Part shown: positions 4,940 through 28,681 of the stretch, in pieces | Layout: every line of letters starts with the position of its first letter | Position numbering within the stretch: position 1 is the stretch's first letter | Source of the DNA: a virus | IMG/VR virus record: IMGVR_UViG_3300032895_000190 | Span: 1 to 36,002 of that record | Length of the DNA stretch: 36,002 nt | Strand: one strand, 5' to 3' | Position numbers and translations under genes: made by a program | The notes under the pieces: model-generated | What the model saw: the letters and a program-made list of their open reading frames with translations, nothing else | What the model was told of the DNA's origin: nothing | The model's database searches: none

Positions 4940-5757
4940 GGTTCATTAATCTGGACGGCCAAGAACCCTGCAAGTCCTGGTACGAGAGAGCCTGCGCGCT
5001 AACTACCCGGCTGGATGCTGCTGCCACAAAACTGGATAGGGACAAGATAATCGAGGACAACAGCGCGGTGTGGGGTGATCTGAAACCGTGGCTTCTGAAA
5101 CTCTCGGCGGGAAAATGCTGGTTTTCCGAGTCTCGAGATTCCTTCAGTCACTTGGACGTGGAGCACTATCGCCCCAAAGGCACGGCGAAAGACATAGACG
5201 GCAAGGAGCGTGGTGAAGGCTATTGGTGGCTAGCCTTTGACTGGCATAACTTCCGGGTCTGCGGCAATGTTGGAAACCGAAAAAAGGGGGCGTATTTCCC
5301 CCTCCGGAGCAGCACGCACCAAGCCACCGCGACCGACCGCAACATTGAGGATGAGCTTCCCTATTTGTTGGACCCTACCCGACCGGAGGATCCGATACTG
5401 CTATGTTTCGACGAGAACGGGGACATTAAGCCGCTACCGGACCTGGACGCCTGGAGTAAGACTCGTGTCGAGGAGTCGATCAAACGATACAAACTGCGTG
5501 AGCACGAACCGTTGATGGAGGCGCGCCGCGATATCTGGTCCAAATGCGCGCGGGAAGTGAATCGCTGCCAAAACTTACTCAACCAACAAAACAGATCCCC
5601 GTCGGCCACAAACAGACAGGCAATTAAGGAGCAGATGATGAAGATTCGGGAGATGTTGGCATTCCGGGCGGAATTCTCAGCCGTCGCTATTGAGTGTCTC
5701 CGAAGTCGGAGCGAGCAGTGGGCGCAACGGTTGGCATCTGAAGCACCGACATCCTGA
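4936..5757 (+). CDS. HNH endonuclease, PtuB-like (TIGR02646-type)
   Basis: 273-residue putative nuclease effector paired with the preceding ATPase. The core is Cys61 followed by DVEHYRPK (Asp74, Glu76, His77, Arg79, Lys81), then FDWHNFRVCGN (Trp103, His104, Asn105, Cys109) and KKGAYFPL, and then the LLDPTRPEDP segment; this order matches the HNH proteins found with Septu and with retron ATPases. The first zinc-ligand pair, normally Cys-x-x-Cys, reads CWFSES here, so the second Cys is absent and metal binding may be altered. The start is a GTG at 4936 overlapping the ATPase stop. The C-terminal 90 residues are helical. It ends 17 bases before hsdM. Known for the family: HNH/beta-beta-alpha-metal DNA cleavage. 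Inferred: activity gated by the ATPase. Confidence 0.82.
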   Translation: MRFINLDGQEPCKSWYERACALTTRLDAAATKLDRDKIIEDNSAVWGDLKPWLLKLSAGKCWFSESRDSFSHLDVEHYRPKGTAKDIDGKERGEGYWWLAFDWHNFRVCGNVGNRKKGAYFPLRSSTHQATATDRNIEDELPYLLDPTRPEDPILLCFDENGDIKPLPDLDAWSKTRVEESIKRYKLREHEPLMEARRDIWSKCAREVNRCQNLLNQQNRSPSATNRQAIKEQMMKIREMLAFRAEFSAVAIECLRSRSEQWAQRLASEAPTS

Positions 5758-5774
5758 ACCGAGGCATCGAACCT

Positions 5775-7217
5775 ATGCGTCAACAAAGTGCGGCGCTGAT
5801 CCAGAAAGTTTGGAGCTTCGCTCACGTCCTCAAGGATGATGGGCTAGCTTTCATGGATTATACAGAGCAAATTACGTATTTACTTTTCATTAAGATGTCG
5901 TGGGAGCACCGTCAATCCGGCGTGGACGAGATACCATCTCGCTACACTTGGGGCGTGTTGAGGAGCATTGGCGACAACCAGAAGCTTTTGGAGAGATATC
6001 ACCAGGGGCTGCGAAAGCTGAGCGAGGTCCCTGGCCTGATTGGTTTGATTTTCACAAAGCCTCAGAGCAAAATCAACGATCCGGCCAAACTGCGTTTGCT
6101 GATTCAGATGATAGACGGTGAGAACTGGTCTCGTCTTGATCTGGACGTTAAGGGCGAGGTTTACGAGGGGCTACTGGCCAGGAATGCCGAAGACGTGAGG
6201 GGGGGAGCTGGACAGTACTTTACGCCTCGACCCGTAATTCGTGCGATCGTAGATGTCATGCGACCAGAGCCGATGATGAGGATTTCGGACCCGGCGTGTG
6301 GTACGGGAGGCTTTCTTTTAGCCGCGTTCGAGTATCTTCTGGACAGGGTAAAAACCCCCAAGGAGAAGAATCACCTCCGAACGAGGGCGTTGCAGGGAAT
6401 AGATCTTGTTCCCAATGTCGCGCGTCTATGCGCTATGAACCTCTTCCTGCGTGGAATTGGCGCTAATCACGCGCATCCCGTGGTCTCAATTTCTGACAGC
6501 CTTGAAACTAAGGTTGAGCCGGTTGATATGGTTCTTACGAACCCGCCATTTGGCAAGAAGAGCAGCTTCACCATCATCGGTGCGGGAGGAAAGAGCCAGA
6601 CCGATAGGATTTCTTATGAACGCCCAGAGTTCTGGACCACCACCAGCAATAAGCAACTGAACTTCGTCCAACACGTTTATTCAATGCTGAAAGAGAACGG
6701 CCGTGCCGCTGTGGTAGTGCCAGACAATGTGCTGTTTGAAGGCGGCGCCGGTGAGAAGATACGTCGGGAACTGCTTCAACGGTGCGACGTCCACACCCTT
6801 CTACGCCTACCGACCGGCATTTGGTATTCTGCCGGCGTGAAGGCGAATGTGTTGTTCTTCGATAAAAAGCCAAGTGCGAAAGCGCCGGCGACGAAGGAGA
6901 CGTGGGTCTATGACCTGCGTTCGAACCAGAAATTCTCCCTTAGGCAGAATCCGATTGAGATCGAAGACATGACAGACTTCGTCCACAATTTTTGTGCAAG
7001 CAATCGTGCTGAACGCAAGGAAACTGACAAATTCCACCGCTTCACGTACTCGGACATCATTGCACGAGACAAGGCAAGTCTCGATATTCAATGGGATCAT
7101 GAACCAGGGAGCGCACCCAAAAACGCCTCCCCTCACACACTACTGAAGGACATCCTAAAGGATTTGGAAGAAGCAATGAAAGAATTCGCCGCGGCCGAAG
7201 CTGAAATCCTCCGATAG
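5775..7217 (+). CDS. hsdM: Type I restriction-modification methyltransferase subunit HsdM
   Basis: 480-residue N6-adenine DNA methyltransferase. The N-terminal helical domain is recognisable (QKVWSFAHVLKDDGLAFMDYTEQITYL). The SAM-binding motif I DPACGTGGF starts at Asp172, after GAGQYFTPRPV, and the catalytic motif IV NPPFG starts at Asn256. The length is normal for HsdM. With HsdS it should form an adenine methylase. It is the last gene of the block and is separated from hsdS by the ATPase-HNH pair, unlike the usual hsdR-hsdM-hsdS order. No hsdR follows: the next gene is a convergent phage tail gene ending at 7270. A GAGG-like ribosome site lies upstream of the ATG. The locus may be a methylation-only system, or hsdR may lie left of the window. 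Confidence 0.93.
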   Translation: MRQQSAALIQKVWSFAHVLKDDGLAFMDYTEQITYLLFIKMSWEHRQSGVDEIPSRYTWGVLRSIGDNQKLLERYHQGLRKLSEVPGLIGLIFTKPQSKINDPAKLRLLIQMIDGENWSRLDLDVKGEVYEGLLARNAEDVRGGAGQYFTPRPVIRAIVDVMRPEPMMRISDPACGTGGFLLAAFEYLLDRVKTPKEKNHLRTRALQGIDLVPNVARLCAMNLFLRGIGANHAHPVVSISDSLETKVEPVDMVLTNPPFGKKSSFTIIGAGGKSQTDRISYERPEFWTTTSNKQLNFVQHVYSMLKENGRAAVVVPDNVLFEGGAGEKIRRELLQRCDVHTLLRLPTGIWYSAGVKANVLFFDKKPSAKAPATKETWVYDLRSNQKFSLRQNPIEIEDMTDFVHNFCASNRAERKETDKFHRFTYSDIIARDKASLDIQWDHEPGSAPKNASPHTLLKDILKDLEEAMKEFAAAEAEILR

Positions 7218-11312: not shown

Positions 11313-12566
11313 CTACGGCGGCGTGCTGGTGGATGGCGGCGCGGGAGCCTGCGAGGTCTGCGGCGCGTTGGTCAGCTCGGCGTCGAACAGGTTCAGCGGG
11401 TTCGGCTCGGGGCTGAACGCGTCGGGCGGCATCAGGATCAGGTCGGTGTGCGTGCCGCTGCCGTCCTTGCGGAAGGTGAGCGAGCCGATGATCCACGTCG
11501 CGTTGGCAATGTCGGCCGCCGGCGCGTCGATCGTCGCCAATCTGTTCGGCGTCCAGAGCGTGCCCGCGCTGTCCCGCCAGCTGTCGCAGGTGATGGAGGC
11601 GCCCTGGCTCCGGCCGATGCGCCTGGCCTTTTCCCAATTCGCGCGTTGCTTGGCGATGGCGTCGTTGTCGATCGCCTGCTGCCCGGCCGGGGTCGGCGCG
11701 ATTTGTTCCGAGACGATGATGCGCAGCCGGTATTCGTCCAGCGTGTCATCCAGGACGGTGGCGCGGCGATTGGCGAGCCCGCCCAGGTCGGCGGTCTGGT
11801 CGACGCCGGAGTAGACCACCACGTACGTCGAGAACCGGCCATCGACGGACCGCTCGGCGTTGATCGCCTCGACGTTGCCCGGGAGGGTGAAGCCGGAGGC
11901 GTGCCGCGCGGTGCCGATGCGGTCCAGCACGAGGTGGCCGAACACGTCCTCGTAGACCAGGTAGCCGGCGTAGCGGGCGACGGATTCGATGATCTGGTAG
12001 GGCGTCTCGCCCAACGGCACCTGGAACGACGGGATCGCGATGCCAAGGTCGGCGACGGCCGAACAGGCTGTGATGCCGTACGCCTTGCAGAGCTTGGCCG
12101 CTACGTCGAGGGCGTTCGCGCCGTTGATCTGGCCGCCGCGGATGCCCGGGTCGTTCAGCAGATCGGCCGAGCAATCGACCAGGTTGCGGGTGATGCCGCG
12201 GCCCGAGAGAGTGACCTGGTGATTGCGTGCGTCGATCGGGATGGAGCGGCGGTCGATCTTCCCGGTAATGACGAGGTCGGACCCGATATAGATCAGGCAC
12301 GGCTGGCCGGGGCGGGTGCCTGCGAGTGCTGGGCCTTGCAGGAACTCGGCGCTCGCGGTGAGCGACCAGGTGTTGGGCATGGATTCGCAGGAACGGGTGA
12401 TGGTCACGTTCTGCCAGCCGACGAAGCGGTTCGAGCCGACCTGGATGGTCACGTCGTCCGGGCCGGAGCCGAGAGAAGGCGCCACAGGTTGTCGCTCCGC
12501 CAGATCAGGAGATTGCGCCCGCGCCGCAGCCTCGCCAGCCGCCAGGATGTCGGTGCCGCTGGTCAC
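11313..12566 (-). CDS. baseplate hub protein (Mu gp44/gpP-like)
   Basis: 417-residue hub protein equivalent to T4 gp27. The family core starts at about residue 38 (DDVTIQVGSNRFVGWQNVTITRSCESMPNTWSL), followed by YIGSDLVITGKIDRRSIPIDA, SGRGITRNLVDCSA, and a C-terminal half with ETPYQIIESVARYAGYLVYED. The C-terminus ends in a Pro/Thr-rich tail. The start is uncertain: the GTG at 12566 has no Shine-Dalgarno sequence and the frame closes at about 12603, so cargo inserted upstream may have removed the native start region. This is the first phage gene after the 12930-17724 insertion; in Mu-like phages it follows the circularisation gene directly. Confidence 0.9.
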   Translation of the reverse strand: MTSGTDILAAGEAAARAQSPDLAERQPVAPSLGSGPDDVTIQVGSNRFVGWQNVTITRSCESMPNTWSLTASAEFLQGPALAGTRPGQPCLIYIGSDLVITGKIDRRSIPIDARNHQVTLSGRGITRNLVDCSADLLNDPGIRGGQINGANALDVAAKLCKAYGITACSAVADLGIAIPSFQVPLGETPYQIIESVARYAGYLVYEDVFGHLVLDRIGTARHASGFTLPGNVEAINAERSVDGRFSTYVVVYSGVDQTADLGGLANRRATVLDDTLDEYRLRIIVSEQIAPTPAGQQAIDNDAIAKQRANWEKARRIGRSQGASITCDSWRDSAGTLWTPNRLATIDAPAADIANATWIIGSLTFRKDGSGTHTDLILMPPDAFSPEPNPLNLFDAELTNAPQTSQAPAPPSTSTPP

Positions 12567-12907
12567 AGAGCCGGCTACGGCCGATTGGGGTGCGAAGCGG
12601 ACCTAATGGCGCTATCGTCCAGAGGTCGATGTATCTGCAAACCAGCCGCCAGGTCGAGGTGTTCCATTTCTCGGTGGTGAGGGGGCACGCCAGACAACCT
12701 GGGCGGATTTTCTCTTGGCTTGCCCAGTGGTGCAGCTATACCTTCGCGGTTGGCGAACGACCCGCGGACCTCCGGCGCCCACGATCGATGTTATCGGGGG
12801 GCGACGAGGCGAACCTCTAATCGTGGACGCCAACATCGCGTCGTGGAAACACAGCACTCGTTTATCCACCTGGGTGGCTATCGTGTCGGGAGGAGACGGA
12901 GAGGATA
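12567..12907. other. intergenic stretch upstream of the nitrilase operon
   Basis: About 340 bases between the divergent gp44-like gene (minus) and the cargo operon (plus). Overlapping short frames (12590-12820 plus, 12612-12869 minus) have no recognisable sequence. A possible sigma-70 promoter for the cargo operon is listed separately. The left junction of the insertion is probably in or near this stretch, but I see no target-site duplication or terminal repeat. Confidence 0.5.
12715..12742 (+). promoter_or_regulatory. possible sigma-70 promoter for the nitrilase operon
   Basis: TTGGCT at 12715-12720 and TATACC at 12737-12742 are separated by 16 bases, each matching the consensus at four of six positions. 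It points into the plus-strand cargo operon about 165 bases upstream of the first strong ribosome-binding site. Motif match only. Confidence 0.3.
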
Positions 12908-13000
12908 ATGGATACGCTCAACCCGAGACGTGAAGCCTGCCGCCGCGTTCCCGCAAAATCATCGAAAGAATACCGTCCCCGTGGCAGAAACCCGCACTGA
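12908..13000 (+). CDS. 30-residue leader-like ORF with strong RBS, overlapping the nitrilase start
   Basis: The best ribosome-binding site of the operon (GGGAGGAGACGGAGAGGA, 12887-12904) leads to an ATG at 12908, which opens a frame different from that of the nitrilase-like protein. This frame encodes 30 residues starting MDTLNPRRE and stops at 12998-13000, inside the nitrilase gene. The larger gene has only GTG starts (12930, or a second one near residue 18) with no Shine-Dalgarno site. Three readings are possible: a translated leader coupled to the hydrolase; a frameshift in the sequence, with the ATG being the true hydrolase start; or chance. The strong RBS is seen directly; coupling is inference. 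Confidence 0.4.
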   Translation: MDTLNPRREACRRVPAKSSKEYRPRGRNPH

Positions 13001-14333
13001 ACTCGCGGAGGACGAGTGGCTGTCCACAGTCACAAAGCGAAGCGCTGTCGAGGACATCCACCCAATTGACGATTTGGTTGCGAGCAGGCGCCTGCTCGTG
13101 GACTGGTATCTCATCGCCGAAGCCGCCCCGCCTGAGTTGCTACGCCACTACGCAACATTCGAAGAGGCCGACCTCACTCGCCGTGCTGCGTTCGATCTGG
13201 AATCCATGCACCGGGGGGACTTCAGCCTGCGCTTGGCTGGGACGAGCGATGCTGTGGCGGCTCTGTTGGGCGTTGGCGCGCGCCTCCGTGCGCTCGACGA
13301 CCTGCTCGCGATCCAAGCACATGATCACGGCCTTCCGTCAGATCCGGAGGGTACCTGGTTAGTTAAAGGTTCGGCCGACGATGCCTTCCTCATCCCGCGC
13401 TACCTGCCGCGGAAGCCGCCCAGAGCTCGGCAAGGCAAACCGGTCACCGCGGGGCCATTCACACACCGCTCCCTGATCCACCACCGTGTACTGCCCACCC
13501 GGATTGGGAGCCGGGCTGTGCGACTGGCTTGCGCAGCAGTTCGGCTTGGGCGGGATGACGGACCACTGATACTCGGTGGCGGCCTCTTCCCCGGACTTCA
13601 CCTTATACCGGAACCCGTCGGCAAGTGCTTCAGGATCAAGGCGGTCCAATGCGATCGCCAGGAGGAAGTCGCTGACGAGATCATGCGTCAGGCTCTGGTG
13701 GACGACTGCTGCGCGGTCGTGTTTCCGGAACTCACGATCAGCCCCGACCTTCGCAACCGGATTGAGCGGAGCCTGCGCCGGCAACCGCCGCGCCCCGGGA
13801 GGCAGAGAAGCATCCCGCTCGTCATAGCGGGCTCCTGGCACGAGCCTGCGGGCGCCCGGTACCGGAACGTCGCGCCCATACTGGACGGGTTCGGAGCGGT
13901 CGTCGCTCGCCATGAGAAGACGATGCCCTACGACTACAACGGATCCATGGAGGCCCTCCAGCGTGGCGGGGCGATAACAGTGGTGGTCACTGAGGACGCC
14001 CTCGTTGGCGTCGCGATTTGCCTCGACTTCTGTGACAGGGGGGGCACGCGGCACAACCCCTATGCCATGCTCGACGTGGACCTAATGCTCGTTCCGTCGT
14101 TCGGCAATGCACGCACACTGGATGGTCACATGGCGACGGCCCAGGACATGAAAACCAGATGGCGCACGGAGACCTTCGTCGTGCAGCAGGGCGACCGCCT
14201 GCCGCCGCCGGGCATAGGCTACGTCCTCGCACCCGCGGATGACCTGAAGTCGCAGGCAACCGACCTCGTTTCAGACCAGCCCTGGAACCGACGCCCTGCG
14301 TCGGGAACCCTTGACCGCGCCCCGAGTTTGTGA
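12930..14333 (+). CDS. nitrilase-superfamily (carbon-nitrogen hydrolase) domain protein
   Basis: 467 residues. The first 190 or so residues are helical and not recognised (VDWYLIAEAAPPELLRHYATFEEADL and onward). Residues about 195-440 form a carbon-nitrogen hydrolase domain with the complete catalytic triad: Glu267 in VVFPELTIS, Lys330 in RHEKTMPYDY and Cys364 in VGVAICLDFCD, with the usual spacing, plus LVIAGSWHE and YRNVAPILDG between them. Such enzymes hydrolyse nitriles or amides, or transfer acyl groups; the substrate cannot be read from sequence. It is the first gene of a three-gene plus-strand operon with a winged-helix protein and a KaiC-like ATPase, set inside a phage tail run. The start is uncertain because the strong RBS serves a different frame. 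Possible role: an effector or signal-modifying enzyme of a conflict system. Confidence 0.78.
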   Translation: MKPAAAFPQNHRKNTVPVAETRTELAEDEWLSTVTKRSAVEDIHPIDDLVASRRLLVDWYLIAEAAPPELLRHYATFEEADLTRRAAFDLESMHRGDFSLRLAGTSDAVAALLGVGARLRALDDLLAIQAHDHGLPSDPEGTWLVKGSADDAFLIPRYLPRKPPRARQGKPVTAGPFTHRSLIHHRVLPTRIGSRAVRLACAAVRLGRDDGPLILGGGLFPGLHLIPEPVGKCFRIKAVQCDRQEEVADEIMRQALVDDCCAVVFPELTISPDLRNRIERSLRRQPPRPGRQRSIPLVIAGSWHEPAGARYRNVAPILDGFGAVVARHEKTMPYDYNGSMEALQRGGAITVVVTEDALVGVAICLDFCDRGGTRHNPYAMLDVDLMLVPSFGNARTLDGHMATAQDMKTRWRTETFVVQQGDRLPPPGIGYVLAPADDLKSQATDLVSDQPWNRRPASGTLDRAPSL

Positions 14334-14368
14334 AACGTTGTGAACTGTGGAAGAGGAATTGAGTAGCT

Positions 14369-15046
14369 ATGACCGAAACGCAGGCACCGCCGCAGGATGG
14401 CGGGAGCTTGGCAGTCGGCGCCGTCCCACCCGGGAATGCCGCGACCGGCGCCCCAACCCTCTCCCCCATAGAGCTACTTGCTCTTGGGGAGCTCCCGCCG
14501 GACGAGGCCGGCCCCCTCATTGCCCAAACGCTCGAAAGCCCGCAGCCGAAGGCCTGCGGGAGAATGTACGATGCCCTCGGCGCTCTTGCGTGGAAGCAGT
14601 CCGCAGAAAGGCTTGCCGGCGAGCCTATGCGGGCATGGCACGACCTTTACCGGTACGCCGCTGGATTGATGCGCGATGCTGGCGAGGTTGAGCTCGGGGC
14701 GAAGCTGCTCGGGATCGCGGATCAGACCCTGCGCTGGGTGCACTATGGGCTCGCGCGCCCCCGGAAGGACATTCGTCGGAGGGCTCATGAATATCGTATC
14801 CTGGTGTTCTTGGATGGGCACGAGGGGAAGAAGGCTTGGCGCGAGGAAATAAAAGCGGAGTTCAGCCTGAAGCAGGGCAATCTGTCGCGCGTGCTGGCGA
14901 ACCTTGCCACTGGTGGGTTCGTTGAGCGCCACGCAGAGGGGCGGAGGCAACTGGTCGAGCTTACAGCGCAGGGACGCGAGGCAATTAATCAGCGCCCAGG
15001 CGCGGGTGGGCTGGTTACCTCACCGCCCATTGAACGTGAAGCCTAA
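14369..15046 (+). CDS. winged-helix (MarR-like) protein of the nitrilase-ATPase operon
   Basis: 225-residue protein. The N-terminal 30 residues are low-complexity Gly/Ala/Pro. Residues about 35-135 are helical (LSPIELLALGELPPDEAG; YRYAAGLMRDAGEVELGAKLLG). Residues 142-205 form a winged helix: YRILVFLDGHEG, then the recognition helix segment KQGNLSRVLANLATGGFVERH and the wing ending LVELTAQGREAI, like MarR or ArsR C-terminal wings. It could be the operon's regulator or an adaptor between hydrolase and ATPase. The ATG at 14369 lies 35 bases after the hydrolase stop, with AGAGGA about 12 bases upstream. The next gene begins two bases after its stop, indicating co-translation. Confidence 0.7.
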   Translation: MTETQAPPQDGGSLAVGAVPPGNAATGAPTLSPIELLALGELPPDEAGPLIAQTLESPQPKACGRMYDALGALAWKQSAERLAGEPMRAWHDLYRYAAGLMRDAGEVELGAKLLGIADQTLRWVHYGLARPRKDIRRRAHEYRILVFLDGHEGKKAWREEIKAEFSLKQGNLSRVLANLATGGFVERHAEGRRQLVELTAQGREAINQRPGAGGLVTSPPIEREA

Positions 15047-15048
15047 GC

Positions 15049-17724
15049 GTGTCTGAGGGCACCAGCGTATCGGACCTAGTTACAGCGACGGTGGACGCCA
15101 GCGCTGCAGCGATTGCCTTGCACTTCGAGCGACTTTACGCTGATCAAGGATGCACGTCGTTCGAGGACGAGCATAGTCTCGGCATACGGCTTGAGGCGGG
15201 CTGGGATGGCGATCTAAGGGACGCGCTCGGGGCTGACGCGTCAGGCTTTCCGCATGTCGCGATCTCCGATGTCTTTGCTAACTGGCTGCGGCAAGCGCTC
15301 GGTCCAGGGAGGGGGAAGGGGCGCCGCCTAGACCGGCATATCTGGGCAGCGGATGAGGATCGAAGACTTCAGTCCCTTTTCCCGACTACTGCGAGACGTG
15401 GTCGCGAGAGCGGTGTGGATGAACCGAGTCTATCCTCCTTGGGAAGAACTCGACTATCCGCCATACTGCAACAGGCACTTCTCCGCAGCAGGCGGGTGCT
15501 GCAGGCCGAGAAGGCACAGACGGCCAACCACGACCCACGCCGCGAGCCGGCGAGCGCCTTTTGTCCGTCGCCGTTCTACGTAGCCCAGAGGATTCTCTCC
15601 AATCCAGAGGCTCCTGCCACCGAGATCTATGCGCGTGCGGCGATCCGGATAGCGCTCGCCGAGCGCGTGGCCTCGCGGGACGACCGTCCTCTGAAGCTGG
15701 ACTACGACACATTGTCCGTGGCGCTCGAGGAAATTTGGGCCAGGGCAGCTACAAGCAAGAACGCTCGGCAGGGGCACCTCGCGGCAAATCGCGAGGCCGT
15801 ATTCTTGCGTCACTACCTTGCGGCCCAAGGCATCCTCGTACTCGAGATTGACTGGACGGAGACGACGAGTCCCTGGGCACGGATCGACCGGCTCCTCAGA
15901 ACGCCTGACGGTCTCTTTACGCTGTCGGAAGGCGGCGAGCTCGGCCGCCATGTGAGCTTCAGGCTCCATCCCGAGTACTCTGGCTTGCCAGACGCGGCGG
16001 TGCTGCTCAACGAGCTTGAAGGTCTGCCTCTGCCGATCGAGGGAATGTCCGAGATCTTCCAGGGCGGCCTCAGATTCGCCGCGAGCGGCGACATTGTTGC
16101 CGCCGTCTCGGGTCCGTTCGGTGCCGGCAAGACAACCGCATGTCTCGCACTTGCCGCCTCGTTAGCGCCTCTCGGATGCCGAACCCTCTTCCTGTCCTGT
16201 GAGGAGGAACCGGAAGATATCACGGTGAGACTGCGGGAAGCGGTGCCCCGCCATCTCGCTCGGAGCTCGTCGCTTTTCAGGTCGGTGCCGGCGCACCAAG
16301 TTGGCTCCGACAGGCTGGACGGCTGGTTTCGCGCCCACAAGCTGCGCGTGGCGGAAGACGACGGCGTAGAGATCGACGTCGCTGTCGCGCTCACCTCGCT
16401 CATTGACGACGCGCTGAAGGAGGCGTCTCTGTTCCATCCGTTCCGTGTTGGATCGTTATCAGACAACAAGCTTCCAAGCTTTGCTCGCCCTGTGATCATA
16501 GTCGACGGATTCCACCAACTCTTCCTTGAGACCAAGACGAGTGGCCACGGGATCGAAAGTTCGCTTAGGCGCCTAATTGACCGGTGCCGTGATATGCGCG
16601 CCGTCTTTCTGTTCACTGTGGGTGAAACAGAGCCTGTGATACGCCGTCTCGATTATCTTTGTGATCTTGTTCTGCAGCTCGACCGGCGCGGCTTCGACAC
16701 GCCGGAATCGCGGGCAGAGAGGATATTCCGCCTTCTCAAGGCACGCCGCCAGCCAGCCATCTCCGGTGCGCACGTGCTACACCTCTCCGGTCCGCGCAGT
16801 TTTCGCGTCAAGCCGAACGCGTCGAGCTATGCCCAACGAGGCAAGTTGCGCAGGTGGGCGGAGCCCGACGCCGCCAGCATCCTTCGCCTCTCGGACAGTT
16901 GGGACGACGTCCATCTACAGGCCGGAACCCAGAGCCTGATTTACGGCTATGGCAGCTCTGGGAAGGCGGGTCTCGGGCTGTACATTCTTCACCGCCGACC
17001 GATGCCGGCTTCCAGAGAGTTTAGGAGCGAACCCGATTTGTTCGCGCCTGAAAGGCACACCTCTGAGGCCCCTCTAGACGTGCGGCACTCGTACGAGAGC
17101 CGGATTCTGATCGTGTCGTTCCTGTACCACGCGACATATTATCGCAAGCTTGCGGCCCGTATCCGTAGACCACCCGGGTTGCGCCCGGACCGACCCTCAT
17201 CGGCGGCGGACAGCATGCTCCTTGACGTGATGGCGCTCTATCCGGGAAATCTCACGCCGGAGGACTTCCTGGCTAAGATCGATAATCGCCTGCGGGCCGC
17301 AGAGGCACGGGGGTTGCCTTACACAGGCGTCATGATCGACGGGATACACAACGTCTACGTGCAGTTTCCGGCATTGCAAGCTGAGACGACGTTCTGGCCT
17401 CAACTCTATGGTGAACTCCGCCGTCGTGGCGTCAACGTTGTGACGACGCACACCGACTTCGAGCTACGCAGCGAAAGTCATACCGGCCAGCCTTCGATTG
17501 ACTTCGAGCACGCCCGCCAACGCGCAGCCCCTCTGATGTCCGCTCTCGTATCCGCCGCCGACTACACGTTTGAACTCTCCGCGGTGACGAAGTCATTTAC
17601 GACGGCATACGAATACATATTCTTTGCCCGGGACACGCTCGGTGCTGACCCGCCAAATGGCTACGCCATCTGGAACCGCCAGACATGTCGGTTGGGGGAA
17701 TGGCAGCCTGGGTTACCCGTGTGA
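15049..17724 (+). CDS. double KaiC/RecA-like ATPase, 891 aa
   Basis: Large ATPase with two RecA-like domains. The N-terminal 330 residues are helical and unrecognised. Domain 1 (about 330-590) has Walker A GPFGAGKT at 355-362, the KaiC-type FLSCEEEPEDI with its Glu pair at about 385-387, Walker B VIIVDG with Asp486, and the closing segment RLLKARRQPAISGAHVLHL, which mirrors the KaiC family's KSRG-type ending. Domain 2 (about 610-890) has a degenerate P-loop GYGSSGKAG (634-641; the usual Thr/Ser after Lys is Ala) and a Walker-B-like VMIDG with Asp764 but no Glu pair. One active and one inactive ring domain is a plausible reading. GTG start at 15049, two bases after the preceding stop. KaiC-like ATPases act as hexameric switches or signal processors; the role here is unknown. 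Confidence 0.75.
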   Translation: MSEGTSVSDLVTATVDASAAAIALHFERLYADQGCTSFEDEHSLGIRLEAGWDGDLRDALGADASGFPHVAISDVFANWLRQALGPGRGKGRRLDRHIWAADEDRRLQSLFPTTARRGRESGVDEPSLSSLGRTRLSAILQQALLRSRRVLQAEKAQTANHDPRREPASAFCPSPFYVAQRILSNPEAPATEIYARAAIRIALAERVASRDDRPLKLDYDTLSVALEEIWARAATSKNARQGHLAANREAVFLRHYLAAQGILVLEIDWTETTSPWARIDRLLRTPDGLFTLSEGGELGRHVSFRLHPEYSGLPDAAVLLNELEGLPLPIEGMSEIFQGGLRFAASGDIVAAVSGPFGAGKTTACLALAASLAPLGCRTLFLSCEEEPEDITVRLREAVPRHLARSSSLFRSVPAHQVGSDRLDGWFRAHKLRVAEDDGVEIDVAVALTSLIDDALKEASLFHPFRVGSLSDNKLPSFARPVIIVDGFHQLFLETKTSGHGIESSLRRLIDRCRDMRAVFLFTVGETEPVIRRLDYLCDLVLQLDRRGFDTPESRAERIFRLLKARRQPAISGAHVLHLSGPRSFRVKPNASSYAQRGKLRRWAEPDAASILRLSDSWDDVHLQAGTQSLIYGYGSSGKAGLGLYILHRRPMPASREFRSEPDLFAPERHTSEAPLDVRHSYESRILIVSFLYHATYYRKLAARIRRPPGLRPDRPSSAADSMLLDVMALYPGNLTPEDFLAKIDNRLRAAEARGLPYTGVMIDGIHNVYVQFPALQAETTFWPQLYGELRRRGVNVVTTHTDFELRSESHTGQPSIDFEHARQRAAPLMSALVSAADYTFELSAVTKSFTTAYEYIFFARDTLGADPPNGYAIWNRQTCRLGEWQPGLPV

Positions 17725-17883
17725 TCGCGTGCCGGCACCACCAACCCGGAGATCGCCGAGCTGGTTTGGCTGCTCGACAACATCTTTCACCACGACTATC
17801 CGGCCGGCACTCTCCGCGCCTTCAAGCGGACGCTCGGCAAGCTGCGCAACGCCGTACCAACCGAGGACGCCCCGGTCAGGTGA
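17725..17883 (+). pseudogene. orphan coding-like remnant after the ATPase stop
   Basis: In the same frame as the ATPase and directly after its TGA, the sequence reads about 52 residues that look like real protein (NPEIAELVWLLDNIFHH, then FKRTLGKLRNAV) and ends with TGA at 17881-17883, overlapping the last bases of the convergent phage gene. There is no ATG, GTG or TTG start. It may be the 3' end of a gene truncated when the cargo was inserted, or a readthrough tail of the ATPase. I do not recognise it. Confidence 0.3.
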
Positions 17884-20518
17884 CGCCGTAGGGTCCCGTG
17901 ACAAGCAGCCCGATCACCGCGCCGCCCGCGTTCAACGCCTCGATCCACAGGTAGGAACTGCCGGCGGTCGCTATCTCGTCCGGGTACCCGCCCCACAGAT
18001 TGCCGCTATAGTTCGACGCGTTGATCCAGCCCGAGGCCGGCGGCACGGTGGCCGAACTGCCGAACGCCTCTCGCAGGCTGGCCGGCGTCGGCGTCGCGGT
18101 GACATTGACACCCGGGCCATAGCCGGGGGCATAAGGCCCACCCGGCGAAATGTAATTCAACGTCAGCGTCGTGGCGTAGGTCGTCCCGTTCGCCGTCGCC
18201 GAGAAGCTGCTCGCGCCCGCTGCGTTCACCGCCGCCACCTGGAAATCATACTCCGTGCCCGCGCTAAGCCCGGAGATCGTCGTCGCGGTGCCGCTGATCC
18301 CGGTCACCTGGGTCCAGGCACCGCCCACGCTCGCCACGCGATACTGCGCGGTGTAGCTGCTCGCCGCGTCATGCGAGCCGTCGATCGCCGCTGCCGACCA
18401 GGAGATGGCGACGCTCGACGTGGTGATCGCCAGCAGCGTCCCCGCCGCAAGGCCCCCAGGCACATTCGGCGCAGCGGCCGAGGTGGTCGCGCTCGCGGGC
18501 GATGACGTGGCGGTGCCCGCGCTGTTGGTGGCGATCACCTGGAAATTGTAGGCGGTCGCGTGCGCCAGCCCGGTCACGCTGACCGACGTCCCGGCGACCG
18601 GCGCGCCGAAAATCGTCCAGCCTCCGCCCGGCGCCACCTGGTATTGCACCGTGTAGCTCGCTGCGGCGTCGTGCGTGCCGTCCGAGGCCGAAGCCGTCCA
18701 CGACAGCGCGACCACGCTATAGGCCGGCGAGCCGGCCGCCGCCACAAGCCCGGCCGGCGCGTTCGGCGGGTTGAGCGCCGTGGTGGCCGTTGCCAGGTTC
18801 GACGGAGGTCCAACGCCCGAGGCGTTGCTCGCCAGCACCTGGAAGTCGTACGCCGTATTGCTCGACAGGCTGGTGACCGTGAAGCCGGTCGGCGACGGCC
18901 CGACCGTGCCCGCGGTTGACCAGATACCGACGCCATGCGCGCTGACCTGGATGATGTAGCCCGACGCCAGACCGCCGGACGTCGCCGGCGACCACGACAA
19001 CACTGCGGTGCTCGCCGTCGTGCTGACCACTGTCAGGCCCAGCGGCGGGTTCGGGGAGGGAAGCTGGTAGACGCCAACGCTCGCGGCCGGCGCGATCAGC
19101 GGGACGCTCGCGCCCGCCGCCAGGTCATAGGTTGGGTTCACCGTCGGGCCGGTGCCGGAGGCCAGTGCCTGAAACGTGGTCGGGCAAAACGCCGGATGGA
19201 TCGCACCTGATTCCGCCGCGATCTGATCCGACCGGCTGACGTCGCGGTAAAGCCGCTGCGCGATCACCAACGACGGCAGCGGGAGCTGCAGGTTGACCGT
19301 CACGATGCTCGGCAGGCTGGCGCCGCGCGCCGTCAGGTCCTGCACCACGGCCGAGCGGAGCGTCTTCAAGGCGGTATAGGTCACATCCTCGCCGGCGTCC
19401 CCCGCGGCGGTGATCTCGCTGTCCAGCGCAGCGGCCAGCGACACGCGCAGCGCGGCGGCGTCGTTGTAGCTGCTCGGCTGGTAGGACGCCGATGCGCGCG
19501 CCAGGCTGACCAGCGTGGCCCGCCGGCACGCCGCCGCCATCGCGTCGCGCATGGCGGCCATCGCGGCACCGATGCCCACGGTCCCGCCGGCACTGTCCGC
19601 GAAGGTGAACCCGGCCAGTGCGAGCAGGACCTGCACCTGGTCGGCCGGATCGGTGATGCCGGCCCGCATCGCCTCCACCAGCGCCGCCAGGGCGTCCAGC
19701 ATGTCGGTGGAGGCACCGTACGAGGCAGCGGCTGCGGCGGCGCCGGAGGCGGCCAGGGCCAGCGCGGCACGCTGATTCGCTAGCTGGGCCTGTAGCGTCG
19801 CCACCGTGGTGCCGATCGGCAGCATGACCGAGGCTGAGCCCGCGCCGTAGCGGCCATAGGTGGTATTGGCATCGGGCGCCGGGAGGGCCGCTGCCATGCC
19901 GACGATCGCGGTCGGGTTGGCGCCACCGGCGATCGTCGCCGCGGCGAAACTGGTCACCACCGCCTGCCCCTCGCCGGTAACGGCCGGGCCGGCTGTGGCG
20001 GCCGGGATCGCCGTGCCGCCCAGGTCGCTGCCGGAGGCCGTCAATGCGCTGTCGGCCGCGGCGAACACGGCAACCGCGGTGGCGATGATCGTGGCCGGGA
20101 AGACCGGGCTGCCGGCTTCGATGAATTGGAACGCGACCTCGATCACCCGCATCTTGTCGCGGTGGATCGCGGTCGAGGCCGACCCGACTGCCACCTTCAC
20201 TGCGCCGATCGTCGGGTGGATCAGCAGTCCCGGACCCTTCGTCTCCACCGCGTTGTCGAGCAAGAGCTGCATGACCGGCGCCAGATCGCCGATCAGGTAG
20301 CCGGAAAAGCTATAGATTCGCAGCGCGCGGCCCATGTCCTCGGGCCAGCCGCCATCGACATAGGGGTATTCGTGGATCGCCTGCCGCCGGCCCTTTTTGG
20401 CCTGCGCGGCGATCACCTTGAACGGCACACCGCGGAAGCTCGCCGTTTGCAGCAGGCCCATGAAGCCCGCGATGCTGGTCGGCGGCGCAATACCAGTGAC
20501 CCCGGTAAAGCCGCTCAT
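17876..20518 (-). CDS. DNA circularisation protein (Mu gp43-like) fused to FN3 domains
   Basis: 880 residues from the ATG at 20518, five bases after the tape-measure stop. Residues about 18-135 are a DNA_circ_N domain (FMGLLQTASFRGVPFKVIAAQAKKGRR, YPYVDGGWPEDMGR, YSFSGYLIGDL, GPGLLIHPTIGAVKV, VIEVAFQFIEAG), as in Mu gp43. Residues about 150-470 are Ala-rich helical, as in the family. Three fibronectin type III domains follow (about 487-575, 578-676, 680-783), each with the SWSxA / YxVQY / YDFQVxAxNxAG pattern. A 95-residue cap ends the protein. Usual gp43 proteins end before the FN3 part, so the C-terminal 390 residues are an added module, similar in layout to the fibre at 30757-32715. It may display adhesive domains near the baseplate. 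An earlier in-frame ATG at 20656 reads only Arg-rich overlap sequence and is rejected. Confidence 0.88.
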   Translation of the reverse strand: MSGFTGVTGIAPPTSIAGFMGLLQTASFRGVPFKVIAAQAKKGRRQAIHEYPYVDGGWPEDMGRALRIYSFSGYLIGDLAPVMQLLLDNAVETKGPGLLIHPTIGAVKVAVGSASTAIHRDKMRVIEVAFQFIEAGSPVFPATIIATAVAVFAAADSALTASGSDLGGTAIPAATAGPAVTGEGQAVVTSFAAATIAGGANPTAIVGMAAALPAPDANTTYGRYGAGSASVMLPIGTTVATLQAQLANQRAALALAASGAAAAAASYGASTDMLDALAALVEAMRAGITDPADQVQVLLALAGFTFADSAGGTVGIGAAMAAMRDAMAAACRRATLVSLARASASYQPSSYNDAAALRVSLAAALDSEITAAGDAGEDVTYTALKTLRSAVVQDLTARGASLPSIVTVNLQLPLPSLVIAQRLYRDVSRSDQIAAESGAIHPAFCPTTFQALASGTGPTVNPTYDLAAGASVPLIAPAASVGVYQLPSPNPPLGLTVVSTTASTAVLSWSPATSGGLASGYIIQVSAHGVGIWSTAGTVGPSPTGFTVTSLSSNTAYDFQVLASNASGVGPPSNLATATTALNPPNAPAGLVAAAGSPAYSVVALSWTASASDGTHDAAASYTVQYQVAPGGGWTIFGAPVAGTSVSVTGLAHATAYNFQVIATNSAGTATSSPASATTSAAAPNVPGGLAAGTLLAITTSSVAISWSAAAIDGSHDAASSYTAQYRVASVGGAWTQVTGISGTATTISGLSAGTEYDFQVAAVNAAGASSFSATANGTTYATTLTLNYISPGGPYAPGYGPGVNVTATPTPASLREAFGSSATVPPASGWINASNYSGNLWGGYPDEIATAGSSYLWIEALNAGGAVIGLLVTGPYGVT

Positions 20519-20522
20519 CGCG

Positions 20523-22328
20523 TTAGCTCCACGGACCGCCGACCATCGGCATGCTGTGTTCGATCCTCGGCGGCGACGCGCTGACCGCGCCCGTGCCGAC
20601 CGCCGTTGCCGTCGTGCCCTGCGGTGCGTTGTGCAGATGCACGTCCACCTGGACATGCCCGGCCAGGCTCGCGATGGCCGGCGCGCTCACGACATGCCCG
20701 GCACGTTGCGATTCCAGGCCGACCGCGCCACCGCTTTCGTACGGAAAGAACGCATTCGCTGCACCGAAGGCATCGGGTGAACCGCGCACGCTGCTCATCA
20801 GGGCGGCGTTCCTGCCGCTGCGGAGATCCTCGACAAGGAAGCCGTAGTTTGCCTCATCCGAGGATGGGTCCAGATGGTGCGCCGCCGCCCATTGCTCGAA
20901 CTCGACACGCCGCGGACCCGTCCACTGCGCCCAACCGAAACCGCCGCGCGAGCCGGGGATCAGCGGATGTTCCTCGTTGATCCCTTGCAAGCCGGACTCA
21001 GCCATCAGGTTCGACACGATGCCGGCGGCCTGATCCTTGGTGATGCCGAGGTCACTCGCGAGAGCATCGCGAACGCCAGCCGCCCGCTCTTGGTTCTCCT
21101 TGTTCAACAGGCTCCGCGACGCGGCGCGATTGCTGGTGGCACTAAGCCAATGCCATGCACGTTCGTACCAAGGCGGGCGATAGTCATCCGACGATGACGC
21201 CGGGTTGAACGGGGAGCCGAGCGGGGCAAAGGGCAGGTGAACACCGCCCGGCGTGAAGATCGTCCTGGTGTCGTCAAACGTCTTCGCCGGCGGAAGCTGA
21301 TTTGCCAGCGCGCCGATGCCGGCGCTCACCGCCAACAGCTCAGTCGGCCCGAGCAGGCCGAGCGCGCGCAATATCCATACCGCCGGCTTGATGGCAGATA
21401 GTGCGGCAACCGCGCCGAGGACGGCGCCGGCATTCTTCCCGTAGGAGTCTGCCAGGTCTTTGTTGTGTTCGATCCAATGCGACGTGGTGTCGAGAACCTT
21501 GGTCGCGGTGCCCGACCAGCTATCCACGATGCGATTGCCGACGCCCTCGATCGCCAAGCCGAGTTCCGACCAGGACGCATTCATCTTCTTCGCGTTGGCC
21601 GCCATCTCGGCGGTCATCACGCCGCCGGTCTCCCGCGCCCGGCGAACGAAGTCATCAAGGCCTGCCTGTCCTTTCTCCAGCAGCGGCAGCAAATCCTTGT
21701 CGACACCGACCGCCGCGAGCGCCCGGCCAGCCGTAGCCTTGTCGGTATAGGTGGACGCCTTGTTCGCCAGCTTGCCGAGCGCATCCTCGGTCTTGGTGAT
21801 GTTGCCCTGCTGGTCGCGCCAGTCGATGCCGAGCGCCTTCAAACTCATCTGCGCGGTGGCGTCGCGGTTATAGAACGCCGCATGCAACGTTTCGGACAGC
21901 CCTTTCAGGCTGCTGTCCATCGCTTCGGCCGAGCTGCCGGCCAACCGGGCGGCACCGCGCAATGCACTCAGCCGATCGACCGGCGTGTTCAGCAGGTTCG
22001 CGGTCTTGCTGATCGAATTGCCCGCGTCGGCCCACCGCCGGCTCAGTTCGACCATCCCGCCGAGGCTGGCGGCGGAGGTAATCCCGACCATCGGGCCGGC
22101 CAAACGTTCCACCGCCCGTGCCGCGCCGAGCGCTCGATCGCCGAGCGTTTGCATGCCCTCGGCGGCGCGGTTGATCCCGGTGACCTCGCCGAATTTCGCC
22201 AGGCTTTTGTTGAACCGATCGGCCGGCGCAGTCAGCGCGGCGATGCGCTTGTTGATCGCATCGAGGCCTGCACTCGCGGCATCATTGATGCCGACGCCGA
22301 TTGCGAACCCGGCTGATTTACCCGCCAC
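20523..22328 (-). CDS. tail tape measure protein with embedded lysozyme domain
   Basis: 601 residues, GTG start at 22328 overlapping the end of the chaperone frameshift frame. Residues 1-300 are helical tape-measure sequence (LDAINKRIAALTAPADRFNKSLAKFGEVTG; GNSISKTANLLNTPVDRL). A hydrophobic stretch at about 300-345 (AGAVLGAVAALSAI ... LLAVSAGIGALA) is the usual membrane-like segment. Residues about 415-515 form a phage tail lysozyme domain (Phage_lysozyme2 type): GITKDQAAGIVSNLMAESGL with probable catalytic Glu444, then GGFGWAQWTGPRR. The tape measure sets tail length and is ejected; the lysozyme would cut peptidoglycan during DNA entry. At about 600 aa it predicts a fairly short tail. Confidence 0.9.
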   Translation of the reverse strand: MAGKSAGFAIGVGINDAASAGLDAINKRIAALTAPADRFNKSLAKFGEVTGINRAAEGMQTLGDRALGAARAVERLAGPMVGITSAASLGGMVELSRRWADAGNSISKTANLLNTPVDRLSALRGAARLAGSSAEAMDSSLKGLSETLHAAFYNRDATAQMSLKALGIDWRDQQGNITKTEDALGKLANKASTYTDKATAGRALAAVGVDKDLLPLLEKGQAGLDDFVRRARETGGVMTAEMAANAKKMNASWSELGLAIEGVGNRIVDSWSGTATKVLDTTSHWIEHNKDLADSYGKNAGAVLGAVAALSAIKPAVWILRALGLLGPTELLAVSAGIGALANQLPPAKTFDDTRTIFTPGGVHLPFAPLGSPFNPASSSDDYRPPWYERAWHWLSATSNRAASRSLLNKENQERAAGVRDALASDLGITKDQAAGIVSNLMAESGLQGINEEHPLIPGSRGGFGWAQWTGPRRVEFEQWAAAHHLDPSSDEANYGFLVEDLRSGRNAALMSSVRGSPDAFGAANAFFPYESGGAVGLESQRAGHVVSAPAIASLAGHVQVDVHLHNAPQGTTATAVGTGAVSASPPRIEHSMPMVGGPWS

Positions 22329-25562: not shown

Positions 25563-26897
25563 TCAAAGCTTTGGCTGATCCGGTTCCTTGGACTCTATAG
25601 ACATTGCAACCTCATCATGCATATTTTTCGTTTGTAAAGACAGATCGTTCAACAATTCCGTAAACCCGTCGCGATGACAAGATTCGATCGCGAGGCGATA
25701 TTCGTCGTCGAGCACTATGGAGTCCGGAACGGAATCCCTTATTGCGACGAGCTGCATTAAGTTGGTCCGCATAGCATCTATTGCGCAACGATATTCCTGA
25801 CCACTCTTCGCAATAATCGCAAGCGATGCCGCTGTATGCGCAAGCCACTCCTTTTCTTTGCGTCCTGGGATTAAATTACAAGAACCGGCTGCCTGTATAC
25901 GATCTCGAAGCCTCACTATCCGGTCGGCAACAGACCCGGCCGTCGTTAGACCGCGGCGATAAGCAATCGCGTGAGCACCCGTTTCCTCAACCTCAATGTT
26001 CAACTCTGGGCCGACTGCATCAAAAGATCTAGTCAGCTCTCTGCAGTACTTCGGCACGCATAAGAGCCGCTTATCCCCAACGACTCCCTCGTGATGAGCC
26101 AGTATTTTGATGGAAGCAACTATGTAGTGATGAGGGATCACGACCTCCTGCACTACCGGGTCAAAGCCCGGGTCTCCGTCGTCCCGTAGGCTGCTCAGAG
26201 GGTATTCTTGCGTGGAGCCAGGAAGGAGCACTGGTCGCTGCAGTTTAGTCCTCTCAATTTCAGTAAACATTTTATAGGCGTTCCGCGCCAAGGCGATGCG
26301 TTCGTTCGCATCCTTTGATATCGACAAGATCGCGAGATCAATCCGCCCCAATACCCAGCGGGCTGCCATGCTCTCAGGTTCTGCCTTCCCCGCCAGGCTC
26401 CTCGTGTGAGTAAGCTTGTCTCTATGCACCTTGCAGGCGTTCGGCCCTAATTTAAGCAGCGCATATGCCAAAATTATGCTTGCGTAGCTACCGTTGTCGC
26501 TGCCGTCGTATAAAGCGTCGTCCTCCACCCTTACCAGTTGCGCAAGACGGCGATCATTCATTCGGAACGTAGGTACACGGACTGCATTTTGGAGAAACTC
26601 TATCCGTGGTTCTAACCGCCTCGGCTCGTCAGGCGCCGCCAAATCAGTGCTGTCGTGACCGTCGCAGCCCGTACGCTCGCCAAAGTTCCAAAAGGCTGAT
26701 GATTGCACCGACAAGGCGCTCGCAATTCTGTTTAGGGTCACGTTACGCGGATCTTTGGTGTTACCCTGTTCAAGAGCTTGCAACGTATTCAAACTGACTT
26801 TTGCCTTGTCGGCAAGCTCCGCCTGGGTAAGGCGACGTTGCCCCCGCAACTCTTTCACCCTCAGTCCATGTTCTCGATTCCAAGGCGTGCCTGTCAT
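25563..26897 (-). CDS. XRE-family transcriptional regulator with long helical C-terminus
   Basis: 444 residues from the ATG at 26897; a TTG at 26933 would add 12. Residues about 10-72 are a Cro/C1-type helix-turn-helix (LRVKELRGQRRLTQAELADKAKVSLNTLQALEQGN, then NVTLNRIASAL). The following 370 residues are helical with no recognised domain; segments such as ESMAARWVLGRIDLAILSISKDANERIALARNAYKMF resemble a TPR-like repeat scaffold. It is transcribed divergently from two unknown genes at 27363-28384 and probably regulates them. The gene is markedly AT-richer than the surrounding phage genes and uses many A/T-ending codons, a sign of separate origin. DNA binding is well supported; the sensory role of the C-terminus is inferred. 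Confidence 0.8.
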   Translation of the reverse strand: MTGTPWNREHGLRVKELRGQRRLTQAELADKAKVSLNTLQALEQGNTKDPRNVTLNRIASALSVQSSAFWNFGERTGCDGHDSTDLAAPDEPRRLEPRIEFLQNAVRVPTFRMNDRRLAQLVRVEDDALYDGSDNGSYASIILAYALLKLGPNACKVHRDKLTHTRSLAGKAEPESMAARWVLGRIDLAILSISKDANERIALARNAYKMFTEIERTKLQRPVLLPGSTQEYPLSSLRDDGDPGFDPVVQEVVIPHHYIVASIKILAHHEGVVGDKRLLCVPKYCRELTRSFDAVGPELNIEVEETGAHAIAYRRGLTTAGSVADRIVRLRDRIQAAGSCNLIPGRKEKEWLAHTAASLAIIAKSGQEYRCAIDAMRTNLMQLVAIRDSVPDSIVLDDEYRLAIESCHRDGFTELLNDLSLQTKNMHDEVAMSIESKEPDQPKL

Positions 26898-27362
26898 TTT
26901 GGGTAGCCTTCTGGGGGGTAAATTGGGGACCAAATCGGGCTGGTGTGCGGGGGCCGCGGCAAGGCATTTTTGCGCTCGTCGCAGTAAGAGAGCGTCACGT
27001 ACAGCCTGATAGCTTTGTCCCCCGCCAGCATCCGCTATCCACGCTTCCTGAAGCTCGCCGTAGATCCTCCTATGGCTGCTCCAGCATAGGCGTACTGGCG
27101 GTGGATGACAACATCGCGCCCGGATTCGTGCGGCGCTTACGCCGATTGGCCGCGCGTCGAATGGATGTCGAGTTCGGGGTCTAAGGCGAGGTCGCAGCCC
27201 TCCAGTTGAGGGAATTTAGGTCAACGTCGAGGGGCTAACCGCAATGCACTCCGGAATAATTCACAGAACGGCTAGCCGCTTATCAACGGGTGCCGACGCG
27301 TTTGGCCCTTTTTTGACGCCTTCAGAAATTCTTGGCGACAGTCAGCTATGTCGGAGGCACAC
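26898..27362. other. divergent intergenic region between XRE gene and unknown operon
   Basis: About 465 bases. A frame at 26945-27184 on plus ends in protein-like residues (VRRLRRLAARRMDVEF) but has no family match and is probably chance or a remnant. The region holds a GGCTAGCC palindrome near 27272 and AT-rich tracts (TTTTTTGACG near 27310). It should contain both divergent promoters and the operator of the XRE protein, but no site is clear enough to call. Confidence 0.4.
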
Positions 27363-27791
27363 ATGAGGACATTGGCTCTTCCCCCACCTGAGCTACTCGA
27401 TCATCAGACGCATATACAAGATCAGGACATTACCTCAGCGTCGCTGGCTTTCCTGGGTACCACTTCTTGGAACCTTGCGGATTTGCGGAAGGCAAGTGGT
27501 GACTTAGAAGGTAGGCGCTGGACACTATCGGACGTCCCGGACGGACGCCCCTACCAACACCGAGAGACAGCTAAAAATAGGGAGTATGACGAGTACTTTC
27601 TGATCACGCGTGTGGCTAGAAGCTCGCCTGGCTCAGTTCTTGCGGCAGCGCTGCTTACTGTCACCTCAATCGCCAGCGAGAACGCGACTCTCGGGCATAG
27701 TCTTTCTCCTTGGGAGGAACGCCAAATAATTCTAGCACTCAAAGCAGGCCTAAGGCTGCTGCTACCGAGTGAAGTCGTTGGGAGGCAATAA
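27363..27791 (+). CDS. unknown small protein of the XRE-linked operon
   Basis: 142 residues from the ATG at 27363, chosen because GGAGG lies six bases upstream; an ATG at 27348 is possible. I do not recognise it. It is a soluble mixed alpha/beta sequence: an N-terminal part with LPPPELLDHQTHIQDQDITSA, a charged centre (RPYQHRETAKNREYDEYFLITRV) and a helical C-terminus (GSVLAAALLTVTSIASENATLG; EERQIILALKAGLRLLLP). No membrane segment is convincing and no catalytic motif is visible. The stop overlaps the next start (TAATG), so the two are co-translated. Codons are AT-richer than in the phage genes. Confidence 0.65.
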   Translation: MRTLALPPPELLDHQTHIQDQDITSASLAFLGTTSWNLADLRKASGDLEGRRWTLSDVPDGRPYQHRETAKNREYDEYFLITRVARSSPGSVLAAALLTVTSIASENATLGHSLSPWEERQIILALKAGLRLLLPSEVVGRQ

Positions 27792-28384
27792 TGGACGCTG
27801 CCGCTGAAACCGGTCTCACCCATCCTTATCGGGGAAATCCCCTAGTTCGCTGGAAAGTGAACCACCAGCTTTTTTTCGTGTGCATACAATTGTTAATTGT
27901 CAATCTATCACGTTTGGAAGTAGCTATAAAGGACGAAGATCGGTGCGCTATCCTACTTGGCCTTCATCGGCTCACGGAGCTTCTCCACGGCTCGGCAGTA
28001 GCGATGAAGCTGGCGGCGGATTTTAGTCGTGCTAGCTACGAAAACGTGGTGCGCCTTGATATGAGTGGCCAAGACCCTGGCTTCAGCGGGGCATTCTCAG
28101 CTGACCACGCGCACATGTTGCGCCGACTGCCGGTGCTCAAAGCAGTACCAAGTTTTGCTTTCGATGAATACAGCAACTTTCTGACCGCCATTGATGCCAC
28201 TTATCGTGCACATGCAAATGTTTGCGAGGCGGCCGTGGGCGGAGCCGCACCGAGCTTGGCACAGGGTTCGACGACAATATTAACCACGGAAGCTACGGCG
28301 GCTTCGCAGCTTCGAGGCACTCTTCGGAGACGTACTCTAGAACGGGCGGGCTGCCCAGTTTCAGGCGTCAATCTGCAGAGGTAA
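27791..28384 (+). CDS. unknown helical protein, faint tryptophan-dioxygenase/PrnB-like pattern
   Basis: 197 residues; GGGAGG precedes the ATG, which overlaps the upstream stop. It is mostly helical, with HQLFFVCIQLLIVNLSRLEVAI near the start and LHRLTELLHGSAVAMKLAADFSRASYENVVRLDM in the middle, then PGFSGAFSADHAHML and FLTAIDATYRAHANVCEAAVGG. The spacing of RASYENVVRLDM, PGFSG and DH recalls heme-dependent tryptophan 2,3-dioxygenase/PrnB-like proteins, but this is impressionistic and the protein is shorter than those enzymes. The last 40 residues are Thr/Ala/Arg-rich. Its two-gene operon with the XRE regulator looks like an acquired cargo. Function unknown. Confidence 0.6.
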   Translation: MDAAAETGLTHPYRGNPLVRWKVNHQLFFVCIQLLIVNLSRLEVAIKDEDRCAILLGLHRLTELLHGSAVAMKLAADFSRASYENVVRLDMSGQDPGFSGAFSADHAHMLRRLPVLKAVPSFAFDEYSNFLTAIDATYRAHANVCEAAVGGAAPSLAQGSTTILTTEATAASQLRGTLRRRTLERAGCPVSGVNLQR

Positions 28385-28414
28385 GAATCCATCCAAAGTG
28401 GCTGTGGCCAGCGC

Positions 28415-28669: not shown

Positions 28670-28681
28670 GCGGCCCTCCTG

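Follow-up and report, generated by a model that had tools for sequence, protein, structure and literature searches.

Analysis of the 36,002-nucleotide stretch of viral DNA (the window) identified a KaiC-like tandem ATPase gene as the third gene of a cassette that also encodes a nitrilase-superfamily hydrolase and a winged-helix (wHTH) protein. We favour, with moderate confidence, the explanation that the KaiC-like protein is the NTPase subunit, acting in sensing or assembly, of a nitrilase-wHTH-NTPase conflict system that is carried by a prophage as anti-phage cargo. The nitrilase-wHTH system is well supported, and the way in which the KaiC-like protein would work within it is what we infer.

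The cassette occupies a variable cargo site in a prophage

Phage genes matched in the window include those for an integrase, a tail fibre, a baseplate hub, a gpN-like protein, a tape measure, a sheath, a portal and a head-tail adaptor. The cassette is flanked by the baseplate hub gene (phrog_177; 11313–12566, - strand), which is 86–95% identical in many IMG/VR contigs, and by a gpN-like gene of the DNA-circularisation/baseplate hub type (17876–20656, - strand), whose product includes fibronectin III domains. In blastn comparisons with close relatives, no homology was found between ~12549–12592 and 17741, which delimits inserted cargo at 12593–17740 (+ strand). Phage homology returns at 17741, which is 17 nt past the stop codon of the KaiC-like gene, within the 47-codon remnant (17741–17883, + strand) of a phage ORF of ~100 aa that is complete in four relatives (L044, L048, L057 and L071); by this comparison, the ORF has been cut to 47 codons by the cargo insertion. 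The homology breakpoints at the cassette edges indicate that the insert comprises exactly the nitrilase, wHTH and KaiC-like genes. GC3 is 0.69–0.74 in the cassette versus 0.80–0.90 in the hub, gpN-like and tape-measure genes.

The gap that separates the gpN-like gene from the hub gene was compared in close relatives, which were contigs with a hub gene 86–95% identical to that of the window. The gap contains a type I-like N6-methyltransferase, a weak match to a specificity subunit and a protein of 213 aa in L046, a DUF4268 protein in L071, other cargo of no assigned identity in L042, L044, L048 and L049, and ~1 kb in L057. The cargo of L049 includes a 691-aa protein. The two flanking genes are adjacent in five distant relatives (L066, L067, L069, L070 and L074) and nearly so in a sixth (L065). 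Carrying differing cargo in close relatives and being empty or nearly empty in distant ones, the gap is, as judged from these alignments, a prophage cargo hotspot of this soil phage lineage, and further candidates can readily be drawn from it.

The location of the operon inside the tail module would be expected if it were the phage's own anti-host or superinfection machinery in lysis or packaging, an explanation that we regard as highly improbable because the cassette lies on the strand opposite to the tail genes, differs from them in composition, and is absent from the relatives that are 86–95% identical at the hub gene, which have unrelated cargo there instead.

Elsewhere in the window, HsdS, PtuA, PtuB and HsdM are encoded in a tight operon without HsdR (1503–7217, + strand, GC 0.52–0.56), in which Septu genes are embedded within a type I methylase/specificity pair; the proteins also match mad5, mad3 and mad2 of MADS, so that this operon may be MADS-like or a methylation-guided Septu. 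The stretch between the tail sheath and portal genes (25563–31258), in which a regulator-like gene is accompanied by large ORFs that match no PHROG, is possibly another cargo site.

The nitrilase and winged-helix genes

The first gene of the cassette (12930–14333, + strand) encodes a 467-aa protein that was assigned to the nitrilase superfamily by alignments, an AF2 model and fold matches in the PDB. The catalytic residues E267, K330, E341 and C364 are intact and are invariant in 17–22 relatives in the alignments. The AF2 model (pLDDT 84) matched Nit2 (2w1v) in Foldseek with an E value of 8e-10, a probability of 1.0 and a TM score normalised by target of 0.56, and, of the solved structures, those of Nit2 and N-carbamoylputrescine amidohydrolase come closest. 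With the Glu-Lys-Cys residues present and the nitrilase fold predicted by the model, the protein is a nitrilase-superfamily member. The ~190 N-terminal amino acids that precede the enzyme domain are mainly helical.

The second gene (14369–15046, + strand) encodes a 225-aa winged-helix (MarR-like) protein, which matches PF12802 at its cut-off and is homologous to wHTH proteins adjoining nitrilases elsewhere. The nitrilase, wHTH and KaiC-like genes follow one another in a tight same-strand operon, with a gap of 2 nt between the wHTH stop codon and the start of the KaiC-like gene. Promoter and terminator scans of the cassette gave no signal above chance, and no relatives of the nitrilase or of the wHTH protein were found in IMG/VR.

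The KaiC-like protein combines an intact and a degenerate domain

The KaiC-like gene (15049–17724, + strand) is an ORF of 891 aa with a GTG start codon. The Pfam KaiC family (PF06745) matched residues 330–395 only (E 2e-6; 27.7 bits, above the cut-off of 26.6), and the NCBIfam tandem-KaiC model PRK09302 matched with an E value of 2e-6 and 26.7 of the 408 bits needed. A comparison with KaiC, which was among the checks suggested together with the original prediction, was made against four tandem KaiC proteins from Microvirga- and Acidisphaera-containing genomes; it found the motifs of domain 1 in order and domain 2 to be degenerate.

Domain 1 (residues ~318–600; 16003–16848, + strand) contains the Walker A motif GPFGAGKT, a Glu run (EEE, within FLSCEEEPEDI), the Walker B motif VIIVDG (within PVIIVDGF), LDYLCDLVLQLDRR, and a KaiC-type end that extends from RIFRLLKARRQP to HVLHLSGPRSFRVKP. 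The order of Walker A, Glu run, Walker B and end segment is collinear with that in real tandem KaiC domains, and the hhalign score of domain 1 against a KaiC profile was 61.6. Since all motifs are in order in the KaiC alignment, domain 1 is, by its motifs, a complete KaiC-type ATPase domain, despite the Pfam match covering residues 330–395 only. The acidic CEEE and the KaiC-family end segment that the original prediction had described in this domain were thus recovered.

Domain 2 (residues ~600–891; 16849–17721, + strand) has a P-loop-like GYGSSGKAG that has no Ser/Thr after the Lys and is therefore not a functional Walker A motif. It also lacks the Glu pair, as determined by inspection; the strand expected to carry the pair reads RILIVSFLYHATYY, and the automatic alignment is unreliable there. 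Both absences had been predicted. The same KaiC profile aligned to domain 2 with an hhalign score of 27.5 and with the two Walker motifs, A and B (TGVMIDGIH), in the expected order; this score was reached by 0 of 200 shuffles (best 24.7), and each half scored alone. The hhalign probability was ~10% only, which is weak in absolute terms, no sequence match to domain 2 was found in the PDB, and an AlphaFold prediction of residues 318–891 from a single sequence without an alignment had a pLDDT of 32 and was uninformative. A RecA-like fold of domain 2 is supported but not proven by these sequence comparisons. As regards the proposed split into an active and an inactive domain, an intact KaiC-like domain 1 and a domain 2 that is degenerate by sequence were confirmed, and a RecA-like similarity of domain 2 was weakly detected.

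The N-terminal region of ~318 residues (15049–16002, + strand), a possible sensor, had no match in Pfam, NCBIfam, PHROGs, PADLOC or the PDB or among all ORFs of the related loci, which agrees with the earlier description of an unrecognised N-terminus of 330 residues. The view of the protein as a regulated switch, which had been put forward from the protein alone, is plausible. No homologue of the full-length protein was found by pattern scans of genome and viral contigs or by tblastn of plasmids and phages, and 337 alphaproteobacterial genomes, 299 genomes of the same order as Acidisphaera and 297 Acidobacteriota genomes gave just weak matches aligned around Walker A, an absence that is bounded by sampling and search sensitivity.

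If the protein were a genuine KaiC-type ATPase, with a double ring that acts as a clock or in signalling and an output domain at its N-terminus, this would account for the KaiC motifs of domain 1, including the Glu pair and the end segment. We consider this very unlikely, because the tandem-KaiC model score is a small fraction of that needed, domain 2 has neither the P-loop Ser/Thr nor the Glu pair, and the KaiC matches in the sampled genomes align around Walker A only. No KaiA or KaiB gene was recognised beside the KaiC-like gene, and identity as a KaiC clock protein was rejected on this ground together with the distance from the tandem-KaiC model and the absence of KaiC catalytic residues in domain 2.

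The nitrilase-wHTH pair is conserved and the third slot is variable

Relatives of the nitrilase were obtained from alphaproteobacterial plasmids, from genomes and from Acidobacteriota, and 14 more genomes were identified by profile in a sample of 378 Pseudomonadota genomes. The resulting 44 loci belong to Alphaproteobacteria, other Pseudomonadota and Acidobacteriota, and at 38 of the 44 loci inspected a recognisable wHTH gene comes directly after the nitrilase gene in the same orientation.

The third slot is usually occupied by a KGGVGR-motif ATPase (13 loci, 12 of them above the curated NCBI cut-off and L114 by motif). These ATPases have extra parts, either TPR repeats or an Mrr nuclease with NACHT and pentapeptide/WD40 parts, which are typical of immune NTPases. 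At several loci (L031, L105, L106, L113 and L114), the start of the KGGVGR gene overlaps the wHTH stop codon, a spacing as tight as that of 2 nt seen in the window. At 13 loci, the wHTH is part of a fusion with a histidine-kinase-like region, which matches profiles of kinases, ZraS among them (best E 5e-10), and looks degenerate by inspection; at 12 loci the slot contains a ~150-aa protein, and a few loci fit no class. Among the loci inspected, a KaiC-like protein in the third slot was seen in the window only. On the nitrilase tree, the slot-3 types are clustered (6 changes versus a shuffled mean of 23), and the nitrilase of the window is placed among the alphaproteobacterial sequences on a long branch of its own. 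The distribution of slot-3 classes across the relatives shows that the third slot is a swappable module, of which a P-loop NTPase is the most widespread form. A counterpoint to the NTPase-subunit explanation is that slot 3 is not an ATPase in the histidine-kinase-fused and ~150-aa forms.

The KaiC-like protein could instead be independent of the nitrilase-wHTH pair, for example as a RadA/KaiC-type regulator or a recombination factor that merely shares the insert. This possibility is suggested by the single example of a KaiC-like third slot and by the many alphaproteobacteria in which the nitrilase-wHTH pair has no adjacent P-loop gene. It is considered unlikely, since the KaiC-like gene starts 2 nt past the wHTH stop codon, the insert ends 17 nt past the KaiC-like stop codon, so that the cargo is exactly three genes, and a P-loop NTPase gene is found in the same slot at 13 other loci. 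From the operon position and these other loci, we infer a functional link of the KaiC-like protein to the pair.

The nitrilase-wHTH-KGGVGR ATPase operon is conserved in Pseudomonadota and Acidobacteriota (L104–L116, L031 and L087), and no published account of it was found in the literature searched. The cassette of the window has the nitrilase followed by the wHTH gene as in this trio, and was not assigned to it, its third protein being KaiC-like and not KGGVGR.

Bradyrhizobium nitrilase-wHTH-150aa cassettes (L005, L007, L022, L025, L027 and L032) are divergent from neighbour genes of similar size, which are annotated in L005 and L007 as an alpha/beta hydrolase, a serine protease and a metallopeptidase, with an S8 peptidase further on. 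In L107, a 973-aa protein (1938–4859) that is actin/HSP70-like by eye is encoded divergently to a nitrilase relative without a recognised wHTH partner.

Associations with phage defence

The KGGVGR ATPases match the PADLOC candidate defence system PDC-M28B, and the PADLOC CARF_nitrilase model matches two of the nitrilases. Gabija GajA and GajB are neighbours of the relative at L008, and a Septu-like ATPase and an HNH gene are neighbours of that at L005, the defence neighbours being recorded at selected loci with no formal null for comparison. The PADLOC matches and the Gabija and Septu-like neighbours point, by guilt by association, to phage defence.

It is also unlikely that the cassette serves metabolism or the stress response as an accessory operon of the lysogenic conversion type, in which the nitrilase would detoxify or use an amide or nitrile, the wHTH protein would regulate, and the ATPase would sense energy or stress. 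In favour of this, the nitrilase superfamily is mainly metabolic, Nit2 and N-carbamoylputrescine amidohydrolase are the closest structures, and catabolic loci commonly have a wHTH gene beside that of an enzyme. However, the conserved partners are KGGVGR/NACHT/Mrr/TPR NTPases and pseudo-histidine-kinases rather than transporters or pathway enzymes, several relatives adjoin Gabija or Septu-like genes, and the copy in the window lies within a phage site of variable cargo.

Proposed mechanism and implications

If the KaiC-like protein is the NTPase subunit of a nitrilase-wHTH conflict system, the wHTH protein may keep the operon low or gate it until infection, when a phage cue would be recognised by the N-terminal region or by domain 2. 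ATP binding and hydrolysis at domain 1 would then drive a ring-like assembly, with domain 2 as a non-hydrolysing platform, and this assembly would bring nitrilase protomers together or release them. The active nitrilase might hydrolyse an essential amide-bearing metabolite or make a signal, by which the infected cell would be stopped.

The cassette is probably a variant of the modular NTPase-effector conflict systems, with a nitrilase-wHTH core. Because the pair recurs beside immune-type ATPases and a KaiC-like ATPase is in that slot here, the cassette would represent a new version of a nitrilase immune switch. A broader proposition, for which we see nearly even chances, is that of a widespread immune family with a nitrilase effector, a winged-helix partner and signal modules that can replace one another (KGGVGR-NACHT/TPR ATPases, pseudo-histidine-kinases and, in this case, the KaiC-type ATPase); a clock-type ATPase would thereby have been co-opted for immune sensing. 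No description of the nitrilase-wHTH family was found in the literature and databases searched, and the literature searched yielded no paper on KGGVGR ATPases or on KaiC in defence.

Comparison with known systems

The defence reverse transcriptase DRT1, which has a nitrilase domain, is the sole case of a nitrilase in phage defence in the literature searched; its nitrilase is gated by oligomerisation and leads to abortive infection, and its substrate is unknown (PMC13275509). DRT1 resembles the proposed system in that a nitrilase, as the putative effector of abortive infection, is controlled by oligomeric assembly, and this assembly gating provides a mechanistic precedent for the cassette nitrilase (PMC13275509). 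In contrast to DRT1, the cassette has no reverse transcriptase, and regulation would be by a separate NTPase and the wHTH protein. A nitrilase system separate from DRT1, present in several phyla and equipped with swappable sensors, would, if real, offer a second and simpler entry to the question of the nitrilase substrate, and would illustrate how new sensors, a KaiC-type ATPase among them, come to control an effector.

The KaiC-like protein resembles the tandem KaiC ATPases (PF06745; PRK09302) in its domain 1 motifs, Glu pair, end segment and tandem layout, and is unlike them in its degenerate domain 2, its unmatched N-terminus of ~318 aa and its operon with a nitrilase and a wHTH gene. It shares with the KGGVGR-motif variant AAA ATPases (NF047398; PADLOC PDC-M28B) the third slot, which they occupy at 13 loci, and a P-loop NTPase fused to other modules. 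The KGGVGR ATPases belong to another P-loop family (ParA/MinD-like motifs) and have TPR, NACHT, WD40 or pentapeptide tails, whereas the KaiC-like protein has a putative second RecA-like domain instead.

The cargo site is comparable to the antiviral hotspots of P2/P4 prophages, where small loci flanked by conserved phage genes vary in their defence cargo, although the window represents another phage lineage and a position between gpN-like and hub tail genes (PMC9122126). The vWA-MoxR ternary conflict systems are likewise three-gene, NTPase-centred systems with swappable modules; in place of vWA, MoxR and VMAP, which the cassette lacks, its core is formed by the nitrilase and the wHTH protein (PMC7159879).
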